A DNA stretch of 64,000 nt from Desulfolithobacter dissulfuricans. GTDB lineage: Bacteria > Desulfobacterota > Desulfobulbia > Desulfobulbales > Desulfobulbaceae. The first letter of the stretch is position 1; each line of letters starts with the position of its first letter. The notes below the pieces were generated by a model. It did not search any database, was not told the DNA's origin, and was given only the letters and a program-made list of their open reading frames with translations. Below, in pieces: positions 10,043 to 25,274 of the stretch. The position numbers and the translations under genes were made by a program. The stretch spans positions 496,001-560,000 of the forward strand of contig NZ_AP024233.1 in assembly GCF_025998535.1 (NCBI RefSeq), in the 5' to 3' direction.

Positions 10043-12103
10043 GTGTTAAGCAGGCGTCACCCTGACCAGGGGGAAGACAATCCGAATCGTAAGGGCGTTG
10101 CTGGTAACGGCAGGGTCTGAAGGAAGCGATAGGAAGTGAGCGGCACATAGCGCAAGCGAACCTGATTCGGCGTATCAGGAGGGTAAGCGTCCTAAATAGC
10201 GCGAAGCCCGATACCTGGTCAGTCCTGATACGTGATTGAGGATGTGGTCGCTCACAGGGAGTTCGCCTTAACCGGGGAAGCCTTGCACTGTTTCCGCATT
10301 AAGCGGAAAAAGAGAAGCACAAGGAGAAATCCAAGGCGGATCGAAGCGGTGTGAGGTGGCAGATGATTCCGTAGTAGTGATGAAATTCCGGCCTGTGAAG
10401 CCTGGTAACAGTGTGGAGGATAAAACCGGGATGACCCAACGGCCTGGTTCGTTGGGGGCAGTTATGAGCCAAAAGCCATATCTGTTGCGAAGGGATGAAG
10501 TTTATTTGAAGGTTTTCCGGAATCTATGGACACCTGGCAGACTGAACACAAGCCGTCCGACGGGACGGGGCACGCTATCGGCGGTATGCCGTGACAGGTC
10601 CTCTGCCGATTTTGGCCGTTCATCGGAGTAGATGGGAGTGTTGATCGTATATTGCCCATGAGGATAGAAAGCGGTCGCGCCCATTGAAGAACCGAAGTCT
10701 CCACGTGGAAATAGAGGAAGGGAAACGCAGGACAGGAGCATGGTTGACGTCTGGTACAGCCTATATGATCGAATGCTGAGCCGGGAGAACCTGGTCAAGG
10801 CATTCTACAAGGTGAAATCCTCGAAAGGAGCTGCCGGTATAGACGGCCAGTCCATCGATGATTTTGCCGGATCACTTGCGACCAATATCGATCATCTCCT
10901 GACGGAACTGCAGGACAAGAGCTACCAGCCGCTGGCCGTGCGACGGGTGGAGATCCCGAAGCCGAACGGCGGGAAACGGCTACTCGGCATACCTGCAGTC
11001 CGTGACCGTGTGGTACAGCAGGCCCTGCTGGATATACTTCAACCAATATTTGACCGCGATTTCCATCCGTCGAGCTACGGCTACCGTCCTGGTCGGAGTT
11101 GTCACCAGGCAATCAGCAAAGCCACGATGTTCATCCGGACGTACGAGCGGAAATGGGTAGTGGACATGGATCTGTCGAAATGCTTCGACACGTTGAACCA
11201 TGACCTGATCCTTGCCTCGTTCCGTCGCCGGGTCAGCGATGGAAGTATTCTTGGTCTGCTGGAGAAGTTTTTGAAAAGCGGTGTTCTGACAGGAGATGGT
11301 TGGCAGGCCAGCGAGGTCGGCAGTCCGCAGGGCGGAGTTATCAGCCCGTTGATTGCCAACGTATACCTTGATTCCTTCGATCAGTTTATGAAGAATCGTG
11401 GCCACCGCATCGTCCGCTATGCGGACGACATCCTGATCCTGTGCCAGTCAAAGAGCGCAGCCGAAAATGCACTGAACCAGGCCAGTCGTTATCTTGAAGA
11501 AGAACTGCTGTTGACCGTCAACCAGGAAAAGACCCATATAAGCCACAGCCTCAAAGGGATTAAATTTCTTGGAGTTTGTATCCACTCCGTGATGACCCGA
11601 ATACAGCGAGGCAAGGTGAGGGCCTTCAAGGCAAAGGTCAAGGCGATGACCCGGCGTAACTCCCCGGTGAACCTTGAGAAGGTGATAGCCGACCTCAACC
11701 GGTTGCTGAGGGGTTTTGCCAACTACTTTCGGATAGCGAACTGCAAGGGTGAGTTTTCTCGGCTGATGAGGTGGATCAGAAGACGGCTGCGTGCTGTTCA
11801 GTTGAAGCTGTGGAAAAAGCCGTGCAGGCTACACCGCAGACTGAGACAGCTGGGCTATAGAGGAGAGTTCAAAAGTATCAAGATGAACTCCTGGGCCAAT
11901 GCAGCAAGTCCACTGAGCCATTATGCCCTTCCCAACAGCTGCCTGCATGGGGAAATGGGGCTCTTTGACCTCGCATCTGTACAGGCCGGAATTTCTGTTT
12001 CAGTATGAAGGAAAAATAAACAGGAGCCGTATACGAGGCCCGTACGTACGGTTCTGTGAGAGGGATGAGGCAAGCTTAATTACCTTGCCTCACCCTACTC
12101 GAT
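10043..12103 (+). mobile_element. Group II intron (boundaries approximate)
   Basis: The element has about 700 bases of structured RNA, a maturase gene (10740-12008), and recognisable 3' domains. Domain V begins at GAGCCGTA (12024) and closes with TACGGTTCT (to about 12054). Domain VI is a stem GAGGCAAG (12067-12074) with CTTGCCTC (12084-12091), followed by A12092, a good candidate for the branch-point adenosine. The intron 3' end is then near 12098-12103. The 5' end is less certain; a GTGTT at 10043 is a weak match to the usual GTGYG start. Its position after a terminator resembles class C introns, but I have not folded the RNA. Confidence 0.75.
10740..12008 (+). CDS. Group II intron reverse transcriptase/maturase
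   Basis: The 422-residue protein carries the ordered reverse transcriptase blocks: IPKPNGGKRLLGIPAVRDRVVQQAL, the SYGYRPGRSCHQA block, VDMDLSKCFDTLNHD, GSPQGGVISPLIANVYLD and the catalytic YADD (in RYADDILIL), then a maturase/thumb region with LLRGFANYFRIANCKGEFSRL. There is no C-terminal HNH endonuclease domain, so it is an endonuclease-lacking type. It should splice its own intron and support retrohoming. The ATG follows a GGAG at suitable spacing inside intron domain IV. The frame is intact, so the intron could still be active. Confidence 0.93.
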   Translation: MVDVWYSLYDRMLSRENLVKAFYKVKSSKGAAGIDGQSIDDFAGSLATNIDHLLTELQDKSYQPLAVRRVEIPKPNGGKRLLGIPAVRDRVVQQALLDILQPIFDRDFHPSSYGYRPGRSCHQAISKATMFIRTYERKWVVDMDLSKCFDTLNHDLILASFRRRVSDGSILGLLEKFLKSGVLTGDGWQASEVGSPQGGVISPLIANVYLDSFDQFMKNRGHRIVRYADDILILCQSKSAAENALNQASRYLEEELLLTVNQEKTHISHSLKGIKFLGVCIHSVMTRIQRGKVRAFKAKVKAMTRRNSPVNLEKVIADLNRLLRGFANYFRIANCKGEFSRLMRWIRRRLRAVQLKLWKKPCRLHRRLRQLGYRGEFKSIKMNSWANAASPLSHYALPNSCLHGEMGLFDLASVQAGISVSV

Positions 12104-12307: not shown

Positions 12308-13297
12308 TCAGACTTCAGTTTTATTCTGTTCCTTTTCCATGGAGTACTCGGTGAGCAGGGCCTGAAGTTTCCATGGAGAAGACAGGCAGGCCCGGCCGAG
12401 ACCGCACTCGCTCATCACTTCGCAGAAGCTGAGGAATTCATCCATCAGCCGGGTTGTGATTTTCTCCCGGTGGTGGATGATCAGCAGCTGACGCTGCATG
12501 TCGATTCCCTCCACCGGTAAACTTTTGAGCCAGCCATGCTCAATTTCACGACATACGGTCAGCGAAGACAGGCAACCGGCGCCGGCGCCGGATTCCACCG
12601 CCTTCTTGATGGCCTCGGTATGACCCAGCTTGGTTTTGATTTTGAGATGTGAGGCGTAGCGGCCAAGCTTTTTCTTGAATATCGCGGCGGTACCGGAGCC
12701 CTCTTCCCGGATGACCCAGGTCGTCCGTTCCAGGTCGTCTGGAACCTTGAAGGCCTTCTCGTTGGCCAGGGGATGGGTGGGGCTGACGATGACCACCAGC
12801 TCATCCTCGAACCAGGGAACGGCCCGGACCATTTCGTCGCTGACTTGTCCTTCCACAAATCCCAGATCCATCTCGCCGCTGGCGATCCGTTTCTCCGCAT
12901 ACCGGGTGTTGAGTACCAGCATGTTGATGTGGACCGCCGGGTGCATGCGCATGAACGTGCCGATCAGGTAGGGCAGCACATAGTTGCCGATGGTCGAACT
13001 GGCGACAATTTCCAGGGAGCCGGCCACGGTGTCCCTTTTTTCGGTGAGCATGGCCTCGATGTTGCCCACCTGGTAGAGAATCTCCTTGGAGAGTGGAAGC
13101 AGGTAACGACCACGGTCGTTGAGCAGCAGGCTACGGCCGTGACGGTCAAACAGTGGTCCTCCCAGATTGTTTTCCAGTTCCCCCAGGGCCATGCTGACCG
13201 CCGACTGGGTAAGGTATAACTTTTTTGCAGCTTTGGTTACCTGCTGCGTATCCGCAACGGCAATGAAGATTTCAAGTTGGCGCAGTGTGATAGGCAT
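12308..13297 (-). CDS. LysR-family transcriptional regulator
   Basis: The 329-residue protein has an N-terminal winged helix-turn-helix (LRQLEIFIAVADTQQVTKAAKKLYLTQSAVSMALGELE begins near residue 5; recognition helix in LTQSAVSMAL) and a periplasmic-binding-type effector domain beginning near residue 90. ATG 13297 with GGGAGAG upstream is preferred over a TTG six codons earlier. The C-terminal 25 residues are rich in Glu, Gln and Lys. The gene is divergent from the complex I operon and shares a 255-base intergenic region with it, so control of nuo transcription is possible but unproven. The effector is unknown. Confidence 0.9.
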   Translation of the reverse strand: MPITLRQLEIFIAVADTQQVTKAAKKLYLTQSAVSMALGELENNLGGPLFDRHGRSLLLNDRGRYLLPLSKEILYQVGNIEAMLTEKRDTVAGSLEIVASSTIGNYVLPYLIGTFMRMHPAVHINMLVLNTRYAEKRIASGEMDLGFVEGQVSDEMVRAVPWFEDELVVIVSPTHPLANEKAFKVPDDLERTTWVIREEGSGTAAIFKKKLGRYASHLKIKTKLGHTEAIKKAVESGAGAGCLSSLTVCREIEHGWLKSLPVEGIDMQRQLLIIHHREKITTRLMDEFLSFCEVMSECGLGRACLSSPWKLQALLTEYSMEKEQNKTEV

Positions 13298-13456
13298 AAC
13301 TCTCCCGCTTATCAATTTAATTGAACAAGAAGTTGTTGAATCCCAAATTTTCTTTTACGAACATAGCAGGTAATACACCTGAGTCAAGCTGGAATCCTCA
13401 TCTGGCCGAAGTTTAAGGCAGTTAAAGCAACAATGAATGAAGGTTCATTTTTTTGC

Positions 13457-13552: not shown

Positions 13553-13960
13553 ATGGATCAACATACCCTGACCAATATCATCTACGTTGCAATCTTCTTC
13601 CTCGGGGCGCTGGCTTTCGGCGTCGGTCCCATCATCATTGTCAAGCTCCTCAGTCCGTCTTCCGCTACCCGCAACGTAACCAACAGGACCGGCCAGCTCA
13701 TCGAGTGCGGTATGGTGCCCATCGGAACCGCCTGGATCCGTTTTGGTATCATCTACTATCTGTATGCACTCATTTTTCTGGCCTTTGATGTTGATGTCCT
13801 GTTTCTTTTTCCGGTGGCTGTGGCCTATAACAGCCCCCAGTTCGTCATCCGTGATTTTGTCGAGGTGCTGATCTTTGTCGGCATCCTCTCGCTTGCTGTG
13901 GTTTATGCCTGGGTGAAAGGAGTGTTTACGTGGGAACAGAGAAAATACCGTCATCAGTAG
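13553..13960 (+). CDS. nuoA: Complex I subunit A (NuoA)
   Basis: This 135-residue membrane subunit has three hydrophobic segments and the family motifs YECG-like [39 protein letters not shown], where the acidic FDVD is conserved. It anchors the junction between the peripheral and membrane arms, near the quinone site. A ribosome binding site (AGAGGGG) precedes ATG 13553. It is the first gene of the operon and overlaps nuoB by 31 bases. Confidence 0.95.
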
Positions 13961-14439
13961 TTCAGTTTGCGGCTCTGGACAAGCTGCTGGCCCTGGGGCG
14001 GGCCAATTCGCTCTGGCCGATGACCTTCGGCCTGGCCTGCTGTGCCATCGAAATGATGTGTACCGGTGGCTCGCGGTTCGACATCTCGCGCTTCGGCGCT
14101 GAGGTCTTCCGGCCGTCACCCCGGCAGTCCGATGTCATGATCGTGGCCGGCACCATCACCAAAAAGATGCTTCCCGGCGTTCTTACCCTGTACGATCAGA
14201 TGCCTGAACCCAAGTGGGTCATCGCCATGGGAAACTGTGCCATTTCCGGCGGTCCGTTCAAGTTCAAGGGAAATTATAACGTGGTTGAAGGGGCGGACAC
14301 CTTTTTGCCGGTAGATGTCTACATCCCCGGCTGCCCGCCCAGGCCCGAGGCCCTTCTCGAGGGTATCATGACCCTGGAAGAGAAGATAACCGGCAAGCGC
14401 CGCTGGCCGCGCATCCCGCCCGATGGGGTAATGTCATGA
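13930..14439 (+). CDS. nuoB: Complex I subunit B (NuoB)
   Basis: The 169-residue protein carries the ligands of iron-sulfur cluster N2: the adjacent cysteines in [10 protein letters not shown], one in GNCAISGG and one in [15 protein letters not shown]2 hands electrons to quinone. GTG 13930 is preceded by AAAGGAG inside the end of nuoA, which supports this start. The stop overlaps the nuoC start by four bases. All four cysteines are present, so the subunit should be functional. Confidence 0.96.
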
Positions 14440-15119
14440 GTATAGTACAAGAGACACGCACCGCTCTGCTGGAACTGTTTCCGGAGCTGGCTGCGGCAGA
14501 GGCCGAAGCCCGGGCCGCCGCAGAAGCTGCCGCCCTGGCAGAGGAAGCAGTGGAGGCTGATACCGAAACGGAAGCCGTGGAACAGGTCGCTTCTCCGGAT
14601 GGATCCGGGGAAGGTGAGGCCTCCGCGGAAGAGACCTCGTCTGCAGAGGCTGAGTCAAAGGAAAAGGCCGAGGTAAAAAAGGCTGGTAAGCAAGAGAAAG
14701 AGGAGGAGGGTCCGCGCCAGAGTGGCATCCTGGATCTGGAGCACAGCGATCGGGGAGTGCATCTCGATGTACTCCTCGATCCGGACCTGGTGGTCAGGGC
14801 AGCCGAAATCCTCGATGGTCTCGGCTTTTCCCTTGAGGCTGTCACCGGCGTAGACTGGATAAAGGACAACCGGATGGAGGTCATTTACGACTACAATCAC
14901 ACCGGCGGTGAACTGTGCCGGGTGGTGGTCCGGACCTTTATATCCCGGGAGAACCCGGAGATCGCCACGATCTCGGAAGTCTTTCCAGGGGCCAACTGGC
15001 ATGAGCGCGAGACCCACGACTTCTTCGGGATAGTCTTTACCGGTCATCCCTGTCTCGAGCCGCTTCTGTTGCCTGAAGATGCTGATTTTCATCCACTCTT
15101 AAAGGACTTCAAGCCATGA
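14436..15119 (+). CDS. nuoC: Complex I subunit C (NuoC) with acidic N-terminal extension
   Basis: The C-terminal part (about residues 98-227) is a normal NuoC/30-kDa subunit, with [15 protein letters not shown], the TGVDW motif and [26 protein letters not shown]. The first 95 residues are unusual: a low-complexity stretch dominated by Ala, Glu and Ser with a Lys-rich end, with no recognisable domain. In typical NuoC the globular domain starts near the N-terminus. The extension is in frame with a good start overlapping nuoB, so it is probably translated as a disordered tail. The subunit helps join the quinone module to the rest of the peripheral arm. Confidence 0.93.
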
Positions 15120-16234
15120 CTGTCCCGATTCAGATCGCACCTGACGAGGTCTTTGTCCTCAATCTCGGGCCCCAGCATCCGGCCACCCACGGCGTTCTGC
15201 GGGTCAAGCTGACCATGGATGGTGAGTATATCGTCAAGGCCGAACCGGTGCTTGGCTATATCCACCGCATGCACGAGAAAATGGCCGAAGCTGGCAGTTT
15301 TGCCCAGTTCATGCCCAATACCGCCCGGATGGATTACCTGCACGCCCTGGCCTACAACCATGGCTATGTCCTGGCGGTGGAACGGGCCGCCGGCATCGAG
15401 GTGCCGGAACGGGCCGAGTACATCCGGGTCATCACCGTGGAGCTCAACCGCATATCGAGCCATCTGCTCTGGTGGGCCGCCTTTATTCTCGACCTCGGCG
15501 GTTTTACACCGCTGCTCTATGCCTTCGATGATCGTGAAAAGATCCTTGACCTGCTCGAACGGATCACCGGCTCGCGCCTGACCTACTGCTACTTCCGGTT
15601 CGGCGGCGTATATAACGACATCGACGAGCAGTTCATCGAGGGTACCTACGAGTTCATCAAGCGGCTGCGTTCGCGGATGCAGCGCATGTACCATGACCTG
15701 GTCACCGGTAACATCATTTTCCGTAAACGTCTTGAGGGTATCGGTATCATCTCCCCTGAACAGTGCCGCAAATACGGGGCCACCGGCCCGGTCCTGCGCG
15801 GTTCCGGGATCAAGTACGATGTGCGTAAAAACGAGCCCTACTCAGTGTATCCGGAATTTGATTTCGATATCCCCGTCTACCATGAGTGCGACTCCATGGC
15901 CCGCTACATGGTCCGCATGGACGAGATCGAGCAGTCCATGCGCATCATCGAGCAGGCCCTGGACAAGCTTCCGGACGGGCCGGTGAAGGCCAAGGTGCCC
16001 AAGATTCTCAAGCCACCGGCGGGTGATTACTATGCCTGCGTGGAGGCTGCCCGGGGCAGCTTCGGCTGCCGTCTGGTCTGTGACGGAGGCAAGTCGGCCT
16101 ATCGCCTCAAGCTGCGTTCGCCGACGTTTTCCAATCTGAGCCTGTTCGGTGAAGTCGCCGAAGGCATGCTGCTGGCTGATGCCCTGGCATTCATGGGCAG
16201 CCTGGACCTGGTCATTCCCGAGATCGACCGTTAA
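15116..16234 (+). CDS. nuoD: Complex I subunit D (NuoD)
   Basis: The 372-residue product is the 49-kDa type subunit that lines the quinone chamber with NuoB. Diagnostic segments are LNLGPQHPATHGVLRVKLTMDGE, GYIHRMHEKMAE, the RAEYIRVITVELNRISSHLLW stretch and the ending SLDLVIPEIDR. Residues expected for quinone contact (HPATHG histidine) are present. It is a separate gene, not fused to nuoC, and overlaps nuoC by four bases. The length is slightly short of the roughly 390-410 of many homologues, but both ends are intact. Confidence 0.96.
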   Translation: MTVPIQIAPDEVFVLNLGPQHPATHGVLRVKLTMDGEYIVKAEPVLGYIHRMHEKMAEAGSFAQFMPNTARMDYLHALAYNHGYVLAVERAAGIEVPERAEYIRVITVELNRISSHLLWWAAFILDLGGFTPLLYAFDDREKILDLLERITGSRLTYCYFRFGGVYNDIDEQFIEGTYEFIKRLRSRMQRMYHDLVTGNIIFRKRLEGIGIISPEQCRKYGATGPVLRGSGIKYDVRKNEPYSVYPEFDFDIPVYHECDSMARYMVRMDEIEQSMRIIEQALDKLPDGPVKAKVPKILKPPAGDYYACVEAARGSFGCRLVCDGGKSAYRLKLRSPTFSNLSLFGEVAEGMLLADALAFMGSLDLVIPEIDR

Positions 16235-16254
16235 GGGGAAGAGGTAAGAATAAC

Positions 16255-17240
16255 ATGGAAACAAGCATCTGGCGCCCGATTCTCTATCTCATAGGATTCA
16301 TGGCCTTTGCCGGTCTCAACGCGGCCTACCTGGGCTGGTGCGAGCGGAAGGGCGCGGCCCATATCCAGCGTCGTATCGGTCCCAAGGAAGTTGGTCCCTT
16401 CGGCCTCCTGCAGCCACTGGCCGATGGTATAAAGCTGATGAGCAAACAGCTGCTGGTGCCCCAGGGCGTGGACGGCATCCTCTTCAGGGTGGCGCCGGTC
16501 CTGGCCATGATCCCGGCCATCACCTCCATGGTGACCATTCCCTTTTCCGACAACATCCAGGCCCGGGCCATCGACTTGTCGGTGCTGCTGATTTTTGCCC
16601 TGGCCTCCATCGGCATGTTCGCCATCCTGCTCGGTGGCTGGGCCTCGGCCAACAAGTACGCGGTCATCTCCGCCGCCCGGGCCGTGTCACAGAATGTGGC
16701 CTACGAGATTCCCATGCTGGTGACCGTGATCACCATCGTCATGATCACCGGTTCCATGAGCCTGCATGAGATCGCCATGGACCAGCAGGGGGATTCTGGC
16801 ACTGGAACGTGTTCCGGTTCGACAAGTCGATCCTCATGCCGGTATCCTTCATCCTCTTCTTCATCTGCTCCATTGCCGAGACCAACCGGGCCCCGTTCGA
16901 CATGGGTGAAGCCGAGTCCGAGTTGATCGCCGGCTTTATGACCGAGTACGGCTCCATGGGATTTGGCCTCTTCATGATGGGGGAGTATCTCAACATCGTT
17001 GTCGGCGCCTGCCTGACCACGATCCTCTTCCTCGGCGGCTGGGACTGTCCCTTTGGCCTGTTTCCCGGCGTGTGGTGGTTTCTGATCAAGATCTACGTCC
17101 TGATTTTTTCCTTCATCTGGATCCGCTGGACCTATCCCCGGACCCAGATTTACAAGCTGCTTAATCTGTCGTGGAAGATACTGATTCCGTTCTCTCTCGT
17201 TAACCTGCTCGTAGCTGCAGCATTTATCAAGGTGTTCTAA
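16255..17240 (+). CDS. nuoH: Complex I subunit H (NuoH), interrupted by a one-base frameshift
   Basis: NuoH is the membrane subunit that forms part of the quinone tunnel. The first part (from ATG 16255) has [24 protein letters not shown] and several membrane spans; the frame breaks near 16788-16792, and the rest continues in the next frame with [33 protein letters not shown] to 17240. Reading six G instead of five at 16788-16792 gives one 328-residue protein of normal length with QQGGFWHWN at the joint. Nothing else is decayed. The missing base is probably a sequencing error, but a real mutation or a -1 programmed shift cannot be excluded from one sequence. Confidence 0.92.
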
Positions 17241-17242
17241 CC

Positions 17243-17680
17243 ATGAGCGCATACTGGAATGATGTCTTTGGCGGAGCCAAGAGTCTGGTAGTTGGCCTCT
17301 CCATCACGGCCCGGGAGTTTTTCAAGCCGGTGGTCACCGAGCAGTATCCGTGGGAGGTGCCGGTCATGACCGAGCGGTTCCGCGGTCATATCGAGCTGGT
17401 GGCAAATGAGGACGGTAAACCCAATTGCATTGTCTGCGGCATGTGCATGCGCGCCTGTCCGTCCGGATGCATTACCGTGGCCGGCAAGAAGGAGGAGGGG
17501 GCCAAGAAGAAGTCTCTCACCAAGTATGAGCTGGACTTCACCAAGTGCAGCCTCTGCGGTTCCTGTATCGAGAGCTGCAACTTCAACGCCATCCGCTTTT
17601 CCAAGGATTACAACCTGGCAGGAACCAGGAAGGAAGATTATGTATTCGATCTCCTTAAACGACTGGAGGAAAAGAGCTGA
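17243..17680 (+). CDS. nuoI: Complex I subunit I (NuoI), 2x[4Fe-4S] ferredoxin type
   Basis: The 145-residue protein has two complete cluster motifs, CIVCGMCMRACP (near residues 55-66) and CSLCGSCIESC (near 98-108), that bind clusters N6a and N6b. It carries electrons toward NuoB. Because this operon encodes no NuoEFG, NuoI may be the point of electron entry, perhaps from ferredoxin; that is inference from gene content. It starts two bases after nuoH and its stop shares one base with the nuoJ start. Confidence 0.94.
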   Translation: MSAYWNDVFGGAKSLVVGLSITAREFFKPVVTEQYPWEVPVMTERFRGHIELVANEDGKPNCIVCGMCMRACPSGCITVAGKKEEGAKKKSLTKYELDFTKCSLCGSCIESCNFNAIRFSKDYNLAGTRKEDYVFDLLKRLEEKS

Positions 17681-18231
17681 TGCAACCTGTTATCTGTCAG
17701 CCGGCTGCTAACCCGTCGCTTTTCACCGCGGAAGGGATGGTCGGCCTGATTTTCCTGTTCTTGATTGCCACGGTTATCACCGGAGCGCTCATCGCCACCA
17801 TGGCCAGGCGGCTCATCCGCGCGGTGGCCGGCCTGGCGGTCTGCTTCACCGGGGTGGCGGGCATCTACTACTTTCTGCTCAGCCCGTTTGTGGCCATGAT
17901 GCAGATGCTCATTTACGTGGGGGCGGTCTCTATTCTCATCGCCTTTGCCATCATGCTGGCCGAGCCGGAGTACAAGGATCCCATCGGCCGCAAGAACCCG
18001 CCCCTGGCCGGACCGCTTGGCTTCTCGGTCGGGGCGCTTTTTTTTGCCGCCTTCACCCTGCTCGGGCTCAACACCGACTGGCAGGTCTTCCCCCGGGAAG
18101 GAACCGGTGACATGCACCACATGGGCATCACGCTGCTGACCACCCATTCCATGGTCTTTGAACTGATCTCCATTGTACTTCTCATTGCCATAATCGGCGC
18201 CCTGGTCGTGGCGCGCAGAGGAAGGGACTGA
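17680..18231 (+). CDS. nuoJ: Complex I subunit J (NuoJ)
   Basis: The 183-residue membrane subunit has about five spans and the family segment FVAMMQMLIYVGAVSILIAFAIMLAEPE, which includes the flexible third helix important for coupling. It lies between nuoI and nuoK with one-base and two-base spacing, as in standard nuo operons. There is nothing unusual in its length. Confidence 0.94.
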   Translation: MQPVICQPAANPSLFTAEGMVGLIFLFLIATVITGALIATMARRLIRAVAGLAVCFTGVAGIYYFLLSPFVAMMQMLIYVGAVSILIAFAIMLAEPEYKDPIGRKNPPLAGPLGFSVGALFFAAFTLLGLNTDWQVFPREGTGDMHHMGITLLTTHSMVFELISIVLLIAIIGALVVARRGRD

Positions 18232-18233
18232 TC

Positions 18234-18554
18234 ATGCTGAATCTGTATAACTGTCTCAACACCTATCTGGTCATTGGCGCCATGCTGTTCGGCTTCGGGA
18301 TCTACGGTTTTGTCGCCCGGCGGACCATCATCGGCATGCTGATCTCCTCGGAGATGATACTGGCCGCCGCCTCCATGAACTTCATGGCCTTCAACCGGTT
18401 CCTGGCCCCGAATCCGTCCATCGGAAAGATATTCACGCTGTTCATCATGGCCATTGCCGCCGCCGAGGCCGCCATCGCCATCGCCATCGTGATTGCCGTG
18501 TACCGGAACTACAAGAGCATCGATACTGAAGATCTGGTCGATCTCCACGGGTAA
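18234..18554 (+). CDS. nuoK: Complex I subunit K (NuoK)
   Basis: The 106-residue three-span subunit belongs to the MrpC/NuoK family. It shows the conserved glutamates in LISSEMILAAASMNF and in AAAEAAIAIAIVIAVYRNYKSI that take part in the proton path through the membrane arm. It follows nuoJ by two bases and precedes the first antiporter-like gene by 21 bases. Confidence 0.95.
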   Translation: MLNLYNCLNTYLVIGAMLFGFGIYGFVARRTIIGMLISSEMILAAASMNFMAFNRFLAPNPSIGKIFTLFIMAIAAAEAAIAIAIVIAVYRNYKSIDTEDLVDLHG

Positions 18555-18575
18555 GCCTAAGAGGAATAGATCGTT

Positions 18576-20072
18576 ATGGACGCTGTCTCCACAACCGCAA
18601 ACATTGTCGTAAACTCCAACCTGCTGCTGGCGGTGATGATCCCGCTGTTCGGCAGCCTGGTTGTGATGATGCTCAGGAATCATCCCAATCTCCGGGAGTT
18701 CACCTCGTTCTGTTCGGCCGTACTGCTGTTTATCATCGTACTGTCGTTCATTCCGTCGATCAGGGCGGGCAAGACTCTGGTCTACCCGATCTTCCACCTG
18801 CTGCCCGGATTGTCGATCACCCTCAGGGCCGATGCCTTTTCGATGATTTTCGCTCTGGTGGCCTCGTCGCTGTGGATCATTGCCGTGTTCTATTCCATGG
18901 GCTACATGCGCGGACTCAAGGAACACGCCCAGACCCGGTTCAATGCCTGCTTCGCCCTGGCCATCTTCGGCGCCATCGGTGTGGCCCTGTCTGACAACCT
19001 GTTCACCCTTTATCTCTTCTACGAGATCGTTTCGGTCTGCACCTATCCGCTGGTCGCCCATCACCAGGATGAGGAAGGCTATGCCGGAGCGCGGAAATAC
19101 ATTGTCTACCTGACCACCACGGCCAAGCTCTTCCTGTTGCCGGCCATGATCCTGATCTATGTGCTGACCGGGACCCTGGACTTCCCGCATAATATTTTTA
19201 CCGGTATCATTCCGGTGGATACCAAGGGCTGGGTCGTGGTCATGCTCTACATCTTCTGCCTGCTCGGATTTGCCAAGAACGGTATCATGCCGCTGCACCA
19301 CTGGCTGCCCGGCGCCATGGTCGCCCCGACCCCGGTCTCGGCCCTGCTCCATGCGGTGGCCGTGGTCAAGGTCGGCGTGTTCTGCACCACCCGGACCATG
19401 CTCTACATCTTCGGTGTCGACACCATGAGCGCGTTGAACCTGGGCATTCCCACGGCCTATTTTGTCGGCTTCACCATCATCATGGCCTCGGTGATCGCCC
19501 TGACCAAGGATAATCTGAAGTCGCGGCTGGCCTATTCCACGGTCAGCCAGCTCTCCTACATCATCCTCGGCGTGGCCATGCTCACCCCGCACGCGGTGAG
19601 CGGTGGGCTTATCCACATCGTCAACCACGCCTTTTCCAAGATCACCCTCTTCTTTGTTGCCGGTGCCATCTATGTGGTCACCCACAAGAAGAACATCTCC
19701 GAGATGAGCGGCCTGGGACGGAGCATGCCCTTTACCTTCGGCGCCTTTGCCGTGGCCTCGCTGTCCATGATCGGGGCCCCGCCGGTGGCCGGGTTCGTGA
19801 CCAAGTGGTACCTGCTGGTAGGTTCCATGGAGGCCCATCAGATCGGTATCCTCCTGATCCTGATCGCCTCCACGGTGCTCAACGTCGGCTATTTCGCGCC
19901 GGTGACCTACAAGGCCTTTTTCGGTAAGCGGCCCGTAGGTGAGGAGTCGGTGGGTATCAGGGAGGCTCCGCTCTCCATGCTGATACCAATCCTGATCGCG
20001 GCTACCGTGTCTGTGATCATCGGAATCTATCCCAACTTCATGATGCAATTTGTCAAGGCGGTGACAGGATGA
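18576..20072 (+). CDS. Extra antiporter-like subunit, MrpD type
   Basis: The 498-residue protein has about fourteen membrane spans and the proton-conducting antiporter core: LYLFYEIVSVCTYPLVAHH with the key glutamate, and MPLHHWLPGAMVAPTPVSALLHAVAVVKVGVF with the key lysine. This motif set is closer to MrpD/MnhD cation-proton antiporter subunits than to classical NuoL. It lacks the long C-terminal amphipathic helix. It stands where nuoL is normally found, but three more antiporter-like genes follow, so it is an additional pump module. Its stop overlaps a small membrane-protein gene by four bases. Whether it moves protons or sodium is not visible from sequence. Confidence 0.88.
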   Translation: MDAVSTTANIVVNSNLLLAVMIPLFGSLVVMMLRNHPNLREFTSFCSAVLLFIIVLSFIPSIRAGKTLVYPIFHLLPGLSITLRADAFSMIFALVASSLWIIAVFYSMGYMRGLKEHAQTRFNACFALAIFGAIGVALSDNLFTLYLFYEIVSVCTYPLVAHHQDEEGYAGARKYIVYLTTTAKLFLLPAMILIYVLTGTLDFPHNIFTGIIPVDTKGWVVVMLYIFCLLGFAKNGIMPLHHWLPGAMVAPTPVSALLHAVAVVKVGVFCTTRTMLYIFGVDTMSALNLGIPTAYFVGFTIIMASVIALTKDNLKSRLAYSTVSQLSYIILGVAMLTPHAVSGGLIHIVNHAFSKITLFFVAGAIYVVTHKKNISEMSGLGRSMPFTFGAFAVASLSMIGAPPVAGFVTKWYLLVGSMEAHQIGILLILIASTVLNVGYFAPVTYKAFFGKRPVGEESVGIREAPLSMLIPILIAATVSVIIGIYPNFMMQFVKAVTG

Positions 20073-20326
20073 TTAGGCTGATAGACTATCTGCGGGCCCG
20101 GCCCCAGGCCCTGAAACTGGGCTGCTATATCGTGCTGGGGCTGGTTCTTTGTTACTCCCTCTACGTGGACAAAAGCCATGCACACACCTGGGCGGAAAAG
20201 CATGTGCCCTTTTTCTGGTCCTTGTTCGGCTTCTGCGCCGCCGGGGCAATCATCGGCATCGCGCACTGGTACGGCCGTTCCGGGATCATGACCAGGACAG
20301 ACTATTACGACACCAGTGACGACTAG
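20069..20326 (+). CDS. Small two-span membrane protein of the complex I operon
   Basis: This 85-residue protein has two hydrophobic segments (about residues 15-31 and 48-66) joined by a polar loop with several His and Lys, and an acidic C-terminus (YYDTSDD). I do not recognise the family. Its start overlaps the upstream antiporter-like gene by four bases (ATGA), which indicates translational coupling, and it lies directly before the nuoL-like gene. It may be an accessory subunit that seats the extra antiporter module. That role is inference from position only. Confidence 0.75.
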   Translation: MIRLIDYLRARPQALKLGCYIVLGLVLCYSLYVDKSHAHTWAEKHVPFFWSLFGFCAAGAIIGIAHWYGRSGIMTRTDYYDTSDD

Positions 20327-20466
20327 AGTCTCCGGCGCGGAGCACGGCCCGGCGGATGTTCCCCGCCGACCGTGAAAAAACGGATCCTGACCTTGAAAGT
20401 TTCCTGCGCCACCCCCGGGTGGACCGGACTTTTACAACACCAAGAATCTGCGAGGATTAACCGACA

Positions 20467-22251
20467 ATGAGTTTTACCCATCCCGCATTCATCCTGATCA
20501 TCGGCGCGCTTATCCTGCCCCTTGTCCGCGGGCCGTTGCGCAAGCCGTATCTGGTGCTGATCCCGCTGCTCAGTTTCAGTGCCGTGGTCTCCAACTCGGC
20601 CCTCTCCGGGCAGTTCATGACCTTCCAGTTCATGGACTGGCAGCTGGTGTTTGGCCGGGTGGACAAATTGTCCACGGTCTTTGCCTACATCATGGCGCTC
20701 ATGTGCATCATCGGCACCCTGTACGGGCTGCACGTGGAAAAGGCCGAGGAACACATGGCGGCCTGGTTCTATGTGGCCGGCTCGCTGGGGACGATCTACT
20801 GCGGTGATTATCTGACCCTGTTCTTCTTCTGGGAAATGATGGCCTTTGCCTCGGTCTTCCTGGTATGGTTCCGGCGCGGGCCCAATTCCCTGCGTACCGG
20901 CTACCGCTACCTGCTCATCCACACCATCGGCGGGGTGATTCTGCTGTTCGGTATCATGTTGCGCTACCAGGCCACCGGCGACCTGGCTTTCACCCTGATG
21001 GATGTGAAGCATCCTGAGCTCTATACCTGGCTGATCATGATCGGCCTGGGACTGAACGCCGCCATCGTTCCGCTGCACTCCTGGCTGCCCGACGCCTACT
21101 CCGAGGCATCGTTCAACGGTGCGGTTTTCATGTGCGCCTTCACCACCAAGACCGCTGTCTACACCCTGGCCCGGGCCTGTGCCGGCATGGATGTCCTGGT
21201 TCTGCTCGGCGTGGTCATGGCCCTCTACGGTGTGATCTACGCGGTGATGGAGAATGACATCCGCAAGCTGCTCGCCTGGTCCATCGTCTCCCAGGTGGGC
21301 TACATGGTTGCCGCGGTCGGTATCGGTACCGAGATGGCCATCAACGGCGCTTCGGCCCATGCCGTGGCCCACATCCTCTACAAGGGGCTGCTCTTCATGG
21401 GCACCGGGTCGGTCCTCTACATGACCGGCAAGACCAAGTTCACCGAGCTGGGCGGTCTCTATCGCAAGATGCCGGCCACCATGATCTTCACCGTCATCGG
21501 CTGCCTGTCCATTTCCGCAGCACCCTTTTTTGCCGCCTATGCCTCCAAGGGCATGATTGTGGGCGCGGCCTTTGAGGAACACCTGAACTGGGTCGGCTGG
21601 CTTCTCATGTTCGGCGCCACCGGCACCTTCATGTACAACGGCCTCAAGCTGCCTTATTTCCTCTTCTTCGGCAAAGAAAACGGCAGCCCGGAAACCTACG
21701 AAAAGGCAGCGGATCCGCCATGGAACATGCAGATGGCCATGACGTTTGGCGCCTTCTTCTGCATCCTGGTCGGCTCCTTTCCCGGCATCCTTTACAGCCT
21801 GCTGCCCTATCCGGTGGAATACACGCCGTTTACCGCATACCACTTTGCCGAGACCGTACAGCTGCTCGGCTTTGCCACCCTGGCATTCTATGCTCTCAGG
21901 AAATACCTGGTGCCCGAAGACAAGCTCTGCCTGGACATGGACTGGTTCTATCGCAAGGGCGGCGGACTCTTCCTCTGGGTTGCCAAAAATCCGATCCAGT
22001 GGTTTGACACCGCCTGGGGGGAGGCCTACCGCGCTGTCGGTCTGGTCAGTCTCATGACCACAGCCCGTTTCTGGAGCTGGTTCGACTGGCACGCCATCGA
22101 CGGGGTGGTGGATGGCATTGCCCGCTGCGTGCGCGGTATCGGCGGACGGGTGCGGGTGCTCCAGTCCGGACAGATTCAGTACACGATCTTCTATGCTGCG
22201 ACCTTTGCCGCGATCGTGCTGATTACGTACACACTTTTTCAACTCTACTAA
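20467..22251 (+). CDS. nuoL: Antiporter-like subunit in the NuoL position
   Basis: The 594-residue protein has the antiporter core (FFFWEMMAFASVFLVW; VPLHSWLPDAYSEASFNGAVFM...TTKTAVY) in an MrpD-like version. Its C-terminal 90 residues contain IDGVVDGIARCVRGIGGRVRVLQSGQIQYT, which closely resembles the end of NuoL, where a long lateral helix leads to a final membrane anchor. I therefore assign it the distal NuoL role despite the MrpD-like core. It begins 140 bases after the small membrane protein, the longest gap in the first part of the operon, with a GAGG before ATG 20467. Confidence 0.85.
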   Translation: MSFTHPAFILIIGALILPLVRGPLRKPYLVLIPLLSFSAVVSNSALSGQFMTFQFMDWQLVFGRVDKLSTVFAYIMALMCIIGTLYGLHVEKAEEHMAAWFYVAGSLGTIYCGDYLTLFFFWEMMAFASVFLVWFRRGPNSLRTGYRYLLIHTIGGVILLFGIMLRYQATGDLAFTLMDVKHPELYTWLIMIGLGLNAAIVPLHSWLPDAYSEASFNGAVFMCAFTTKTAVYTLARACAGMDVLVLLGVVMALYGVIYAVMENDIRKLLAWSIVSQVGYMVAAVGIGTEMAINGASAHAVAHILYKGLLFMGTGSVLYMTGKTKFTELGGLYRKMPATMIFTVIGCLSISAAPFFAAYASKGMIVGAAFEEHLNWVGWLLMFGATGTFMYNGLKLPYFLFFGKENGSPETYEKAADPPWNMQMAMTFGAFFCILVGSFPGILYSLLPYPVEYTPFTAYHFAETVQLLGFATLAFYALRKYLVPEDKLCLDMDWFYRKGGGLFLWVAKNPIQWFDTAWGEAYRAVGLVSLMTTARFWSWFDWHAIDGVVDGIARCVRGIGGRVRVLQSGQIQYTIFYAATFAAIVLITYTLFQLY

Positions 22252-22266
22252 ATAGGACGTAAGGGA

Positions 22267-23784
22267 ATGGACGTACTGATCATAAAAGAGGGGTTTCCCC
22301 TGCTCAGTTTCCTGATTTTCTTCCCGCTCGCCGGAGCTGTGGTGATGCTGTTTTTTTCCGGTGAGTCCTTTGCCCGGTTCTGGACCCTGGCCATTACCTC
22401 GCTGACCGCCATCTTCTCCATTCCGCTGGTCACCGGGTTTGACACCACCACGGCCAAATACCAGTTTGCCGAGGCCCATGCCTGGATCCCGCAGCTGGGT
22501 ATCAATTACATCCTCGGGGTCGACGGCATCTCCATCCTGCTCGTCATGCTGACCACCATCATCATGCCCTTTTGCGTGCTGGCCTCGTGGAAGTACATCA
22601 AGACCCGGGTGACCCCGTTCATGATCTGCCTGCTGATCATGGAGACCTCCATGCTCGGCGTGTTCATGGCGCTTGATTTCGTACTCTTCTACATCCTGTG
22701 GGAGTTCATGCTCATCCCCATGTACCTGCTGATCGCCATCTGGGGTGGGCCGCGCAAGGTCTATGCCTCCATCAAGTTTTTTCTCTACACCCTGGCCGGC
22801 TCCATCCTGATGCTGGTGGCCATCATCGCCCTGTACCAGAAGAACGGCAGTTTCTTCATCCCGGACATGATGTGGCAGAACTACTCCATGAACTTCCAGA
22901 TCCTGGTGTTCCTGGCCTTTTTTCTCGCCTTTGCCATCAAGGTGCCCATGTTCCCGTTCCACACCTGGCTACCGGCCGCCCATGTGGAGGCGCCCACCGC
23001 CGGTTCGGTCATCCTGGCCTCGGTGCTCCTGAAAATGGGAACCTATGGTTTTCTCCGCTTCTGTCTGCCCATGACCCCGGATGCCACCTTCCTGCTGGCG
23101 CCCTATATCCTCTACCTCTCCATCGCCGGTATCATCTACGGCGGATTCACGGCCCTGGCTCAGCATGACATGAAGAAGCTGATCGCCTATTCGTCGGTCG
23201 GCCACATGGGTTTTGTCACCCTTGGTATCTTTGTCCTCAACACCAAGGGGCTTGAAGGTGCCATCCTGCAGATGATCAATCACGGTATCACCACCGGTGC
23301 CCTGTTCCTCTGCGTGGGCATGATCTACGAGCGCACCCATAGCCGCGAGCTGCGGCTGGCCACCGGGGTGGGCAAGTACATGCCCTGGTTCGTGACCTTC
23401 CTGGCCTTCTTTTCCCTGTCCTCTTTCGGCTTCCCGGGCACCAACTCCTTTATCGGCGAGTTCCTGGTCCTGGCCGGAGCCTTTGAGTTCAACAAGGGGC
23501 TGGCCCTGGCAGCCATTCCCGGCGCTGTGCTGGCCGCTGCCTACATGCTGCGCATGCTGCAGAAGATCATATGGGGCGGCACCGACAATCCGGACCAGTC
23601 CTACCTCAAGGACCTGGGCTTCCGGGAGATTATCACCCTGACTCCGTTCCTGATCTTTGTGTTCTGGATCGGTCTTGGGCCGCAGCCCTTTATAGATATG
23701 ATGCACACATCGGTGGTCAACCTCCTCGATGGACTGCACAACTGGCAGCAGGCCCAGTCGGTGGCTGATATTATCTTGCGGTAG
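22267..23784 (+). CDS. nuoM: Complex I subunit M (NuoM)
   Basis: The 505-residue protein is a standard NuoM: FYILWEFMLIPMYLLIAIWGG with the key glutamate, FPFHTWLPAAHVEAPTAGSVILASVLLKMGTYG with the key lysine region, and AYSSVGHMGFVTLGIF. It is one of the proton-pumping antiporter-like subunits of the membrane arm. It follows the NuoL-like gene by 15 bases with GGACGTAAGG upstream and is intact. Confidence 0.95.
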   Translation: MDVLIIKEGFPLLSFLIFFPLAGAVVMLFFSGESFARFWTLAITSLTAIFSIPLVTGFDTTTAKYQFAEAHAWIPQLGINYILGVDGISILLVMLTTIIMPFCVLASWKYIKTRVTPFMICLLIMETSMLGVFMALDFVLFYILWEFMLIPMYLLIAIWGGPRKVYASIKFFLYTLAGSILMLVAIIALYQKNGSFFIPDMMWQNYSMNFQILVFLAFFLAFAIKVPMFPFHTWLPAAHVEAPTAGSVILASVLLKMGTYGFLRFCLPMTPDATFLLAPYILYLSIAGIIYGGFTALAQHDMKKLIAYSSVGHMGFVTLGIFVLNTKGLEGAILQMINHGITTGALFLCVGMIYERTHSRELRLATGVGKYMPWFVTFLAFFSLSSFGFPGTNSFIGEFLVLAGAFEFNKGLALAAIPGAVLAAAYMLRMLQKIIWGGTDNPDQSYLKDLGFREIITLTPFLIFVFWIGLGPQPFIDMMHTSVVNLLDGLHNWQQAQSVADIILR

Positions 23785-23858
23785 ATCGTAGTAAATTTTT
23801 ACCTAAGTGCAGGTAACAAAAACAAACCTGCACGGATGTTAACCGAGGACATACCCAA

Positions 23859-25274
23859 ATGGCAATCCTACCAGAACTTACGCTCCTTGCGGCAGCACTG
23901 GCCTTCTTTGCGCTCAGTCTGACGAAGCAGCTCAACGCTGGTCAGATCAAGAACACCGCCGTGTTCTTTGGATTTCTCACCTTTCTGGCCTCCATAGTCT
24001 GTTTCGGAACCAGGGCATCGCTCTTTTATGATTCCTACCAGGTTGACCAGTTCTCGCAGCTTTTCAAGCTGGTCATGGGATTCGCGCTGCTGGTGGTGAC
24101 CGTGTTCAGCCAGACCGACAAGGACATCAACATCGAGGTGCGGCCGGAATACTACATGTTCCTGTTCCTCTCGGTACTGGGGCTGATGGCCCTGGTCAGC
24201 TCGGTGGAGATGATCTCCATCTTCGTCTCCCTGGAGCTTTCCTCCTTTGCCCTCTACCTGCTCGTGCCCATGCGTGATGACCAGAAAGGGCTCCGGATCC
24301 AGATGGAGGCCGGCATCAAGTATATCCTCTTCGGGGTCATGGCCACCGGCTTCATGCTCTATGGCATGAGCTATCTCTTCGGGCTCACCGGCTCCACCTA
24401 CCTGGCCGAGATCATTCCCGGCCTGCAGAAGGTTGCCTCCCAGCCGGCGGCGCTCTTTGCAGTGCTCATGGTGCTGGGCGGATTCTTCTACAAGCTGGCC
24501 GTGTTCCCCATGCATTTCTGGGTTCCGGACATCTACCAGGGGGCCTCCAACGAGACCACCGGATTCATCGCCACCATCCCCAAGCTGGGTGCGGTGGCCA
24601 TGCTGATCCGCTTTGTCACCATGGCCCAGGGCAACGTGCAGATCATCATCTATCTGCTCATGACCCTGGCGCTGTGCTCCATGTTCTACGGTAACCTTTC
24701 CGCCCTGGTCCAGACCGATGTCAAGCGGATGCTCGGCTTTTCCGGCATCTCTCATGCCGGATTTGTCCTCCTCGGTATCCTGACCATGCAGGTGAGCGGC
24801 TACGCCACTTCCATCTACTACATCATCGGCTATGTTCTGATGAACCTGGCCTGCTTTCTGGTACTGGCCAATGTATCGAGTAAGGGTGAGAACCTTGCCA
24901 TCGAGGATCTCAACGGTCTGCACAAGCGCGAACCGGTCCTGGCCTTCATACTGGCCGTTGGCCTCTTTGCCCTGGCCGGGATCCCGCCCTTTATCGGCTT
25001 CATGGGCAAGTTCATGCTTCTGACCGGGGCCTTCAAGCAGGGCTATCTCTGGCTGGTCATCCTGGCGGCCATCAATACGGCCATTGCCATCTACTACTAC
25101 CTGTCGGTGGTCAAGGCCGCCTATACCGCAGATCCCGAAGAGCGTCCCGATGTCACCGTGGACTGCTTCACCAAGACCATCGGCGTGGTCCTGGTCCTGC
25201 TGATTATCATCATGGGTGTTTTCCCGGCCAAGATAGTTTCCTTTGCCGGCACCGTGGTGCAGTCCATCATGTAG
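23859..25274 (+). CDS. nuoN: Complex I subunit N (NuoN)
   Basis: The 471-residue NuoN has SVEMISIFVSLELSSFALYLL, the FPMHFWVPDIYQGASNETTGFIATIPKLGA segment typical for N, and a GFSGISHAGFVLLGIL stretch. It is the antiporter-like subunit closest to the J/K/A interface. A 74-base gap separates it from nuoM, and the operon terminator follows 33 bases after its stop. It is the last gene of the operon. Confidence 0.95.
   Translation: MAILPELTLLAAALAFFALSLTKQLNAGQIKNTAVFFGFLTFLASIVCFGTRASLFYDSYQVDQFSQLFKLVMGFALLVVTVFSQTDKDINIEVRPEYYMFLFLSVLGLMALVSSVEMISIFVSLELSSFALYLLVPMRDDQKGLRIQMEAGIKYILFGVMATGFMLYGMSYLFGLTGSTYLAEIIPGLQKVASQPAALFAVLMVLGGFFYKLAVFPMHFWVPDIYQGASNETTGFIATIPKLGAVAMLIRFVTMAQGNVQIIIYLLMTLALCSMFYGNLSALVQTDVKRMLGFSGISHAGFVLLGILTMQVSGYATSIYYIIGYVLMNLACFLVLANVSSKGENLAIEDLNGLHKREPVLAFILAVGLFALAGIPPFIGFMGKFMLLTGAFKQGYLWLVILAAINTAIAIYYYLSVVKAAYTADPEERPDVTVDCFTKTIGVVLVLLIIIMGVFPAKIVSFAGTVVQSIM

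Follow-up and report, generated by a model that had tools for sequence, protein, structure and literature searches.

How many protons would a complex I move if its operon encodes four antiporter-like membrane subunits, where the standard enzyme has three, and what would feed it with electrons if no gene for the NADH module accompanies it? This question is raised by an operon of Desulfolithobacter dissulfuricans, which we studied in a 64,000-nucleotide stretch of contig NZ_AP024233.1 (positions 496,001 to 560,000; hereafter the window, whose positions are used throughout), from a one-contig genome of 3,596,428 bases that is 97.85% complete. The operon occupies positions 13553-25274 of the plus strand and comprises thirteen genes in the order A-B-C-D-H-I-J-K-D1-S-L'-M-N, where D1 denotes the protein starting at 18576, L' the protein starting at 20467, and S the small protein between them. 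An initial annotation of the sequence had listed A, B, C, D, H, I, J, and K as well as four antiporter-like open reading frames (ORFs) beginning at 18576, 20467, 22267, and 23859, all of which we found, nuoH with a frameshift (Table 1), while gene S had been overlooked.

Judged by its gene content and kinship, the operon encodes a green-type complex I, a kind already described, here lacking the NADH module. Our overall reading, held with slightly more than even confidence, is that D1-S-L' replaces NuoL in this complex and that L' is no ordinary fourth pump. The unexpected parts are the loss from L' of the lysine of transmembrane helix 7 (TM7), the S gene, and the sharing of the D1-S-L' module with Mrp operons.

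Kinship with green complex I

In the green complex I of certain rhizobia, two MrpD-like subunits replace NuoL (PMC9040806; the type is also known through PMC7415380 and PMC5419562), and this bears out an earlier remark that extra antiporter-like subunits have precedent in other lineages. The window operon likewise has two MrpD-like subunits for one NuoL together with the other core subunits, as PMC9040806 words the type, and is linked to the rhizobial pair by sequence identity, gene order, the S gene, and one clade each in our tree. Plasmid matches (Sinorhizobium, Rhizobium, Ensifer, and others) came to 117 records for L' and 120 for D1, and among the matches listed tblastn identity was 49.5-50.2% for L' and 52.2-54.6% for D1, with 93-98% of the query covered. 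In S. meliloti, a laboratory organism with the cassette on pSymA, and in Phyllobacterium, the genes run J-K-D1-S-L'-M-N-A-B-C-D-E-F-G and are followed on the opposite strand by CBS, I, and H; the same S gene, there of 84 aa, stands between the MrpD-like pair that replaces NuoL, rhizobial copies of it being annotated as "hypothetical protein," and the L' of S. meliloti also has asparagine at the TM7 site. Unlike the rhizobial operons, which carry NuoEFG, the window operon has none, and its gene order differs.

Two further complexes invite comparison. Four antiporter-like subunits are also found in the Nitrospira 2M complex I (Chadwick et al. 2018, via PMC9040806), but the extra subunit there is a second NuoM, whereas the window cassette has a single one; D1 as a second NuoM was rejected, as it lies outside the M clade of the tree. 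Complex_I_3 of the Manganitrophaceae (PMC9040806) shares with the window two green-type MrpD-like subunits in place of NuoL, but differs in having five antiporter-like subunits, among them an additional NuoM, and a lateral helix lengthened by an insertion of 26 residues. A survey of prokaryotic complex I reports a fused-BCD variant from four further classes of this phylum, and the part of it available makes no mention of the window type (PMC12361115).

Conservation and phylogeny of the cassette

A search of genome contigs with D1 returned at least 582 relatives, from which the best 80 loci, leaning to close relatives, were kept. By record title, these best 80 of at least 582 belong to Desulfobacterota groups, Verrucomicrobia, and Telmatospirillum. 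Among the matches listed, the named relatives closest to D1 are a Desulfobulbaceae metagenome-assembled genome (90%), Desulfogranum marinum (86%), and Desulfobulbus elongatus (84%). Where the best 80 loci leave room, L' follows D1 in 73/73 and K stands directly before D1 in 72/77 (the exceptions being L061, L070, L088, L091, and L102, with an M-like gene preceding D1 in L088 and L091), which confirms that an MrpD-like subunit directly follows NuoK, as first described. Across the phylum, L' was detected at E 1e-100 in 68 of 148 genomes, its Mrp-operon form included. The arrangement is neither new nor unique: the green type is published, a second cassette lies in the same genome, and the D1/L' pair is widespread.

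It might be supposed that D1 (and S) has nothing to do with the complex and is an antiporter gene that came to lie within an ordinary nuo operon, as NCBI models call such proteins cation/H+ antiporter subunit D; the models that D1 and L' match, NF006236 and NF009310, bear that name or its "putative" form, and no other NuoL, MrpA, or MrpD model scored above cut-off for either protein among the best 25 model rows each. We regard an insertion as very improbable, however, given that J-K followed by D1-S-L'-M-N is kept with few exceptions in Desulfobacterota, Verrucomicrobia, Telmatospirillum, and rhizobial plasmids, and that the best 80 loci yielded no canonical NuoL.

In a tree of 69 rows (quick search, SH-aLRT support only), D1, L', M, N, and NuoL each formed one side of a branch with support of 95 to 100, and D1 and L' both fell outside the NuoM, NuoN, and canonical NuoL clades, in keeping with the initial claim of two MrpD-like subunits. 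L' stood beside NuoL/MrpA with support 89, a placement left unsure by its stem of 2.04. At the residues that mark NuoL/MrpA (H254, T257, M258, and V259; PMC4938563), D1 has H, A, V, and V and L' has M, F, T, and T, so that by residues and tree neither is the canonical-clade NuoL of ordinary complex I. The sister rows of D1, with support 100, are two proteins from MrpE-bearing operons that themselves carry the D1-S-L' trio. Two signs had been named beforehand that together would mark the 18576 protein as foreign to the complex, namely grouping with Mrp antiporters and absence from related operons: D1 does have its sisters in two Mrp operons, but it is retained in related nuo operons, and on the latter ground the candidate of a stray Mrp gene was rejected.

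The TM7 lysine

When 78 D1 and 69 L' sequences from the best 80 loci were aligned to E. coli NuoL, M, and N, the TM5 glutamate and the TM7, TM8, and TM12 lysines were present in D1 in 78/78, and the TM7 site of L' held asparagine in 68/69 and serine in one. A wider census, limited to ORFs of 430-760 aa, gave asparagine in 72 and serine in 1 of 73 L' sequences, a TM7 lysine in D1 (82/82), M (65/65), N (62/62), NuoL (5/5), and E. coli L, M, and N, and canonical residues at TM5, TM7, and TM12 in 82/82 D1 sequences; its oddities were one M row without the TM5 glutamate, one N row with glutamate at TM12, one L' row gapped at TM12, and, among 12 Mrp-locus proteins, one with glutamate at the TM7 site. 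An antiporter-like protein with glutamate at the TM7 lysine position lies in MrpE locus L155 (3159-4649). The alignment is plain at TM7 because the motif P-L-H-x-W-L-P-D-A follows the site in most rows. In a pattern count over 30 loci, the window's own included, all 15 readable loci had asparagine, the other 15 being unfit for the pattern. In the window's L', Asn197 replaces the TM7 lysine while Glu123 of TM5 is kept, which leaves the Lys/Glu pair broken, and the structure model interrupts TM7 after residue 197; NuoM of the window has glutamate at the TM12 site, as does E. coli NuoM. The count of four antiporter-like subunits stands, but the full canonical residue set is confined to D1, M, and N, the lysine loss in L' having gone unnoticed in the initial annotation.

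The TM7 lysine has been called absolutely conserved and essential (PMC7419157), and N, M, and L mutated at this site are reported to lose function (PMC3046159). Because the TM7 Lys/TM5 Glu pair is missing, L' would not be an ordinary fourth pump; as only D1, M, and N carry the full residue set, the fourth antiporter-like subunit need not add a proton, and the number of protons per two electrons would, to go by these residues, probably lie near the value for ordinary complex I instead of one above it. The changed ion-per-electron ratio first proposed is thus unsupported as stated, with L' lacking its TM7 lysine and only three residue sets complete. Several points weigh against our reading. L' keeps TM5 Glu123, TM8 Lys228, TM11 His302/Lys306, and TM12 Lys361, so it may still conduct protons by another way; NuoL K229A is reported to complement an mrpA deletion in B. 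subtilis no differently from NuoL without the mutation (PMC4938563); the Lys/Glu pair has been proposed to regulate proton paths, not to form them (PMC7419157); and E/F/G-like genes lie nearby in 5 of the 80 related loci, while the rhizobial operons carry EFG.

Lateral helix and place of D1

The structure model of L' has a mean predicted local distance difference test score (pLDDT) of 87.5 and finds its best structural matches, in a structure library searched with L' only, among NuoL/ND5 and MrpD chains. It predicts a C-terminal lateral helix at residues 492-565, in agreement with the earlier observation that only the 20467 protein has a lateral-helix end, although the start and end of this helix are modelled poorly (block pLDDT 64-65 and 51-64). 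Superposed on E. coli NuoL (7z84_L; 485 aligned, 2.7 Å), residue 514 of L' pairs with NuoL 561, and the distance from there to helix 16 (at 570 in L', and predicted at Y590 in NuoL; PMC3274701) is 56 residues versus 29, or ~27 more. A motif reading, with DWFY of L' matched to DWLY of E. coli NuoL, gave 75 versus 46, or 29 extra (45 of 80 L' rows measured; 55-56 for the own-genome NuoL and the NuoL of five relatives). A MAFFT alignment paired the two motifs differently and made the L' linker 11-14 residues longer than that of NuoL (median 75, range 59-80 in 73 rows, versus 61-64), and a hand count from helix 15 to 16 put it at ~17 longer than in E. coli. With an excess of 11 to 29 residues depending on the method, we therefore do not assign D1 either to a place within the span of the helix, flanked by L' and M, or to the far end of the arm.

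This range bears on the possibility, which we consider real but rather less probable than our own reading, that all four antiporter-like subunits pump and move about five protons for every two electrons, at the expense of a donor whose potential lies below that of NADH. Extra subunits could enable more protons with a lower-potential donor, and arms with one more subunit were reported to carry a 26-residue insertion in the lateral helix (both PMC9040806), to which the ~27 residues from superposition come near; most other key residues are, moreover, kept in L'. On the other side stand the missing TM7 lysine, lacking too in the four L' read from Mrp operons, the smaller linker excess by alignment and hand count, and the poorly modelled ends of the helix.

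Small protein S and a module shared with Mrp operons

The start of S overlaps the stop of D1 by 4 bases. S was found in 74/80 loci by blastp and, by a hidden Markov model (HMM) built from 72 of the same best 80 loci, directly after D1 in 77 of the 78 with room. Across 37 aligned relatives, F-W..F-G and, near the C-terminal end, E-D-x-Y are nearly invariant, and the structure model (mean pLDDT 86.3; predicted template modelling score, pTM, 0.54) shows long helices at 12-30 and 49-73. Searches with S gave nothing from NCBIfam at E values up to 1, and from Pfam two weak matches (E 0.036 and 0.17), neither of them above cut-off. Its constant position suggests that S is a subunit of a D1-S-L' module. 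Literature searches met no account of S or of the L' lysine loss, the search being limited and absence in print not established.

As references, Mrp loci were drawn via PF01899 (MrpE), because TIGR00940 (long MrpA) gave no match in 59 phylum genomes at E 1e-200. PF01899 occurred in 39/99 genomes, from which 8 MrpE-bearing loci were examined. Four of them have D1-like, S-like, and L'-like genes after mrpD and the other four do not; all four L' of these trios have asparagine at TM7. The Nitrospira group 3 Mrp operon has two extra NuoM/NuoL-like genes after mrpD (PMC7784846), which may be the same D1/L' pair. The window operon shares the trio with such Mrp operons but differs from them in having the Q-module, where they have MrpE, other Mrp partners, and a different L' C-terminus. 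Since the trio is found in both complex I and Mrp loci, D1-S-L' appears to be exchangeable between them, in the NuoL or MrpA slot. We more tentatively propose, somewhat short of even confidence, that D1-S-L' is a portable module for that slot in both systems, in which D1 transports, L' is a non-pumping transmission subunit, and S bridges.

The sharing could also mean that the module brings Na+ coupling and that the complex could move Na+, to which the trio behind mrpD in half of the 8 MrpE-bearing loci examined and the D1 sister rows from two of those operons would lend some colour. We think this unlikely, in that ion specificity is unreadable from these residues and PF01899 had zero matches in the D. 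dissulfuricans genome, so that by this marker the operon is not an Mrp antiporter.

Electron input

Over the whole genome there were zero matches to PF01512 (NuoF), PF01257 (NuoE), or PF10589, NuoG not being searched by its own family; as a control, these models match in 9, 7, and 7 of 14 genomes, respectively. That no NADH-module gene is present, as first noted for the operon, thus holds genome-wide for NuoE and NuoF. PF01512 was present in 9 of 27 relatives (own genome counted) and in 134 of 148 genomes in an even draw of the phylum, our genome being among the 14 without; the family presumably also takes in NuoF-like subunits of other enzymes, so a match elsewhere need not mean complex I. 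An association between L' and the loss of NuoF-type genes was rejected, L' occurring in 7/14 genomes without and 61/134 with PF01512 (the two surveys taken as the same 148 genomes, and L' including the Mrp-operon form).

The initial annotation had held that nuoEFG linked elsewhere would speak against its reading. The genome itself has no NuoE or NuoF, but E/F/G-like genes lie nearby in related loci L104, L111, L115, L120, and L129, and the rhizobial operons carry them; of the 50 loci with a complete set of A, B, D, H to K, D1, L', M, and N, 2 have such genes, contig ends limiting these counts (>1.5 kb on both sides in 39/50). In L104, L111, L115, and L129, NuoF/G-like genes adjoin the same cassette, and the electron-input module may be exchanged.

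A NuoEFG-less and perhaps ferredoxin-fed Nuo was described for Desulfobulbus (PMC3608642) and a cluster without NuoEFG for Desulfurivibrio (PMC12142623). Like the window complex, these lack the NADH module, with ferredoxin or an unknown oxidoreductase proposed as input; unlike our account of it, the parts of these papers available leave NuoL replacement, S, and the lost lysine unmentioned. Ferredoxin, first suggested here in the initial annotation, would be a reasonable candidate donor, and was already proposed for Desulfobulbus (PMC3608642).

Other nuo clusters and the intactness of the operon

PF00361 matches at 13 places in the genome. A second cassette of the same order, A-B-C-D-H-I-J-K-D1-S-L'-M-N, lies on the minus strand (L015, C1:3454000-3473000), its D1 52% and L' 47% identical to those of the window (antiporter subunits ~37-55%), and a standard cluster, A-B-C-D-H-I-J-K-L-M-N, is also present (L014), with no E, F, or G found in it. 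By eye, a molybdopterin oxidoreductase-like gene and a 4Fe-4S protein precede the standard cluster (L014, 1533-4203) and are a candidate electron input, and a further place (L016) is hydrogenase-4-like.

A one-base shift within a short run of G splits the nuoH gene of the window into two frames, with PF00146 positions 4-168 and 172-297 matched in separate ORFs. Were the frameshift real, the window copy would be dead and L015 or L014 would serve instead, a scenario for which the two reading frames of nuoH and the two further nuo clusters can be cited. It seems to us quite unlikely, since a shift in a short G run is typical of sequencing or assembly error, the remaining operon genes are open, and nuoH is intact in both relatives compared (L050 and L052); the frameshift is probably such an error.

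Operon layout and flanking genes

Table 1. Genes of the window operon with their positions and the basis of their assignment
Gene	Positions	Strand	Basis
nuoA	13553..13960	+	PRK07756.1 and other NuoA models, each under curated cut-off
nuoB	13930..14439	+	TIGR01957, 228 bits, above cut-off
nuoC	14436..15119	+	TIGR01961, 88.5 bits over residues 117-226, under cut-off
nuoD	15116..16234	+	NF004739, 446 bits, above cut-off
nuoH	16255..17240	+	two frames, 16255-16926 and 16809-17240
nuoI, two 4Fe-4S motifs	17243..17680	+	PF12838 and PF00037, above cut-off
nuoJ	17680..18231	+	PRK06638 models, under cut-off
nuoK, 106 aa	18234..18554	+	PF00420 and PRK05715.1-2, above cut-off
D1, MrpD-like antiporter subunit, 498 aa	18576..20072	+	NF006236, 822 bits versus cut-off of 663
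S, membrane protein, 85 aa	20069..20326	+	conserved position between D1 and L'
L', antiporter-like with lateral helix, 594 aa	20467..22251	+	NF009310, 733.5 bits versus cut-off of 564
nuoM, 505 aa	22267..23784	+	TIGR01972, 608 bits
nuoN, 471 aa	23859..25274	+	TIGR01770, 351 bits

NuoC has an acidic, Ala/Glu-rich N-terminal extension of ~100 residues (14436-14780), the conserved domain beginning at about residue 117. Upstream of nuoA, a gene on the opposite strand (12308-13315) is by eye a LysR-type regulator and could regulate the operon, and an ORF of 422 aa at 10740-12008 is reverse transcriptase/maturase-like, by eye resembling a group II intron protein.

Proposed working and implications

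We propose a complex without the NADH module, built of the Q-module (B, C, D, and I) and of H, A, J, K, M, and N, with D1-S-L' standing in for NuoL. Its electrons would come from a carrier of low potential that is not NADH, most likely reduced ferredoxin, enter at NuoI/NuoB, and reduce a quinone, so driving the membrane arm. The complete antiporter-like channels would be D1, M, and N, pumping along with the E-channel, while the lateral helix of L' would hold the arm together without L' being an ordinary fourth pump, and S would lie next to D1 and L' or between the two.

The number of protons moved by each antiporter-like subunit and the role of the TM7 lysine are open questions in complex I research, and the window operon belongs to a natural family of lateral-helix subunits without that lysine, set in a complex with one extra antiporter-like subunit. 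Counting subunits, as in the initial annotation and PMC9040806, predicts more protons per electron for such a complex, whereas counting complete residue sets does not, and the difference is measurable. If the more tentative reading of a portable module with a non-pumping L' is true, nature would already have performed the experiment of keeping an antiporter-like subunit in the arm without pumping.

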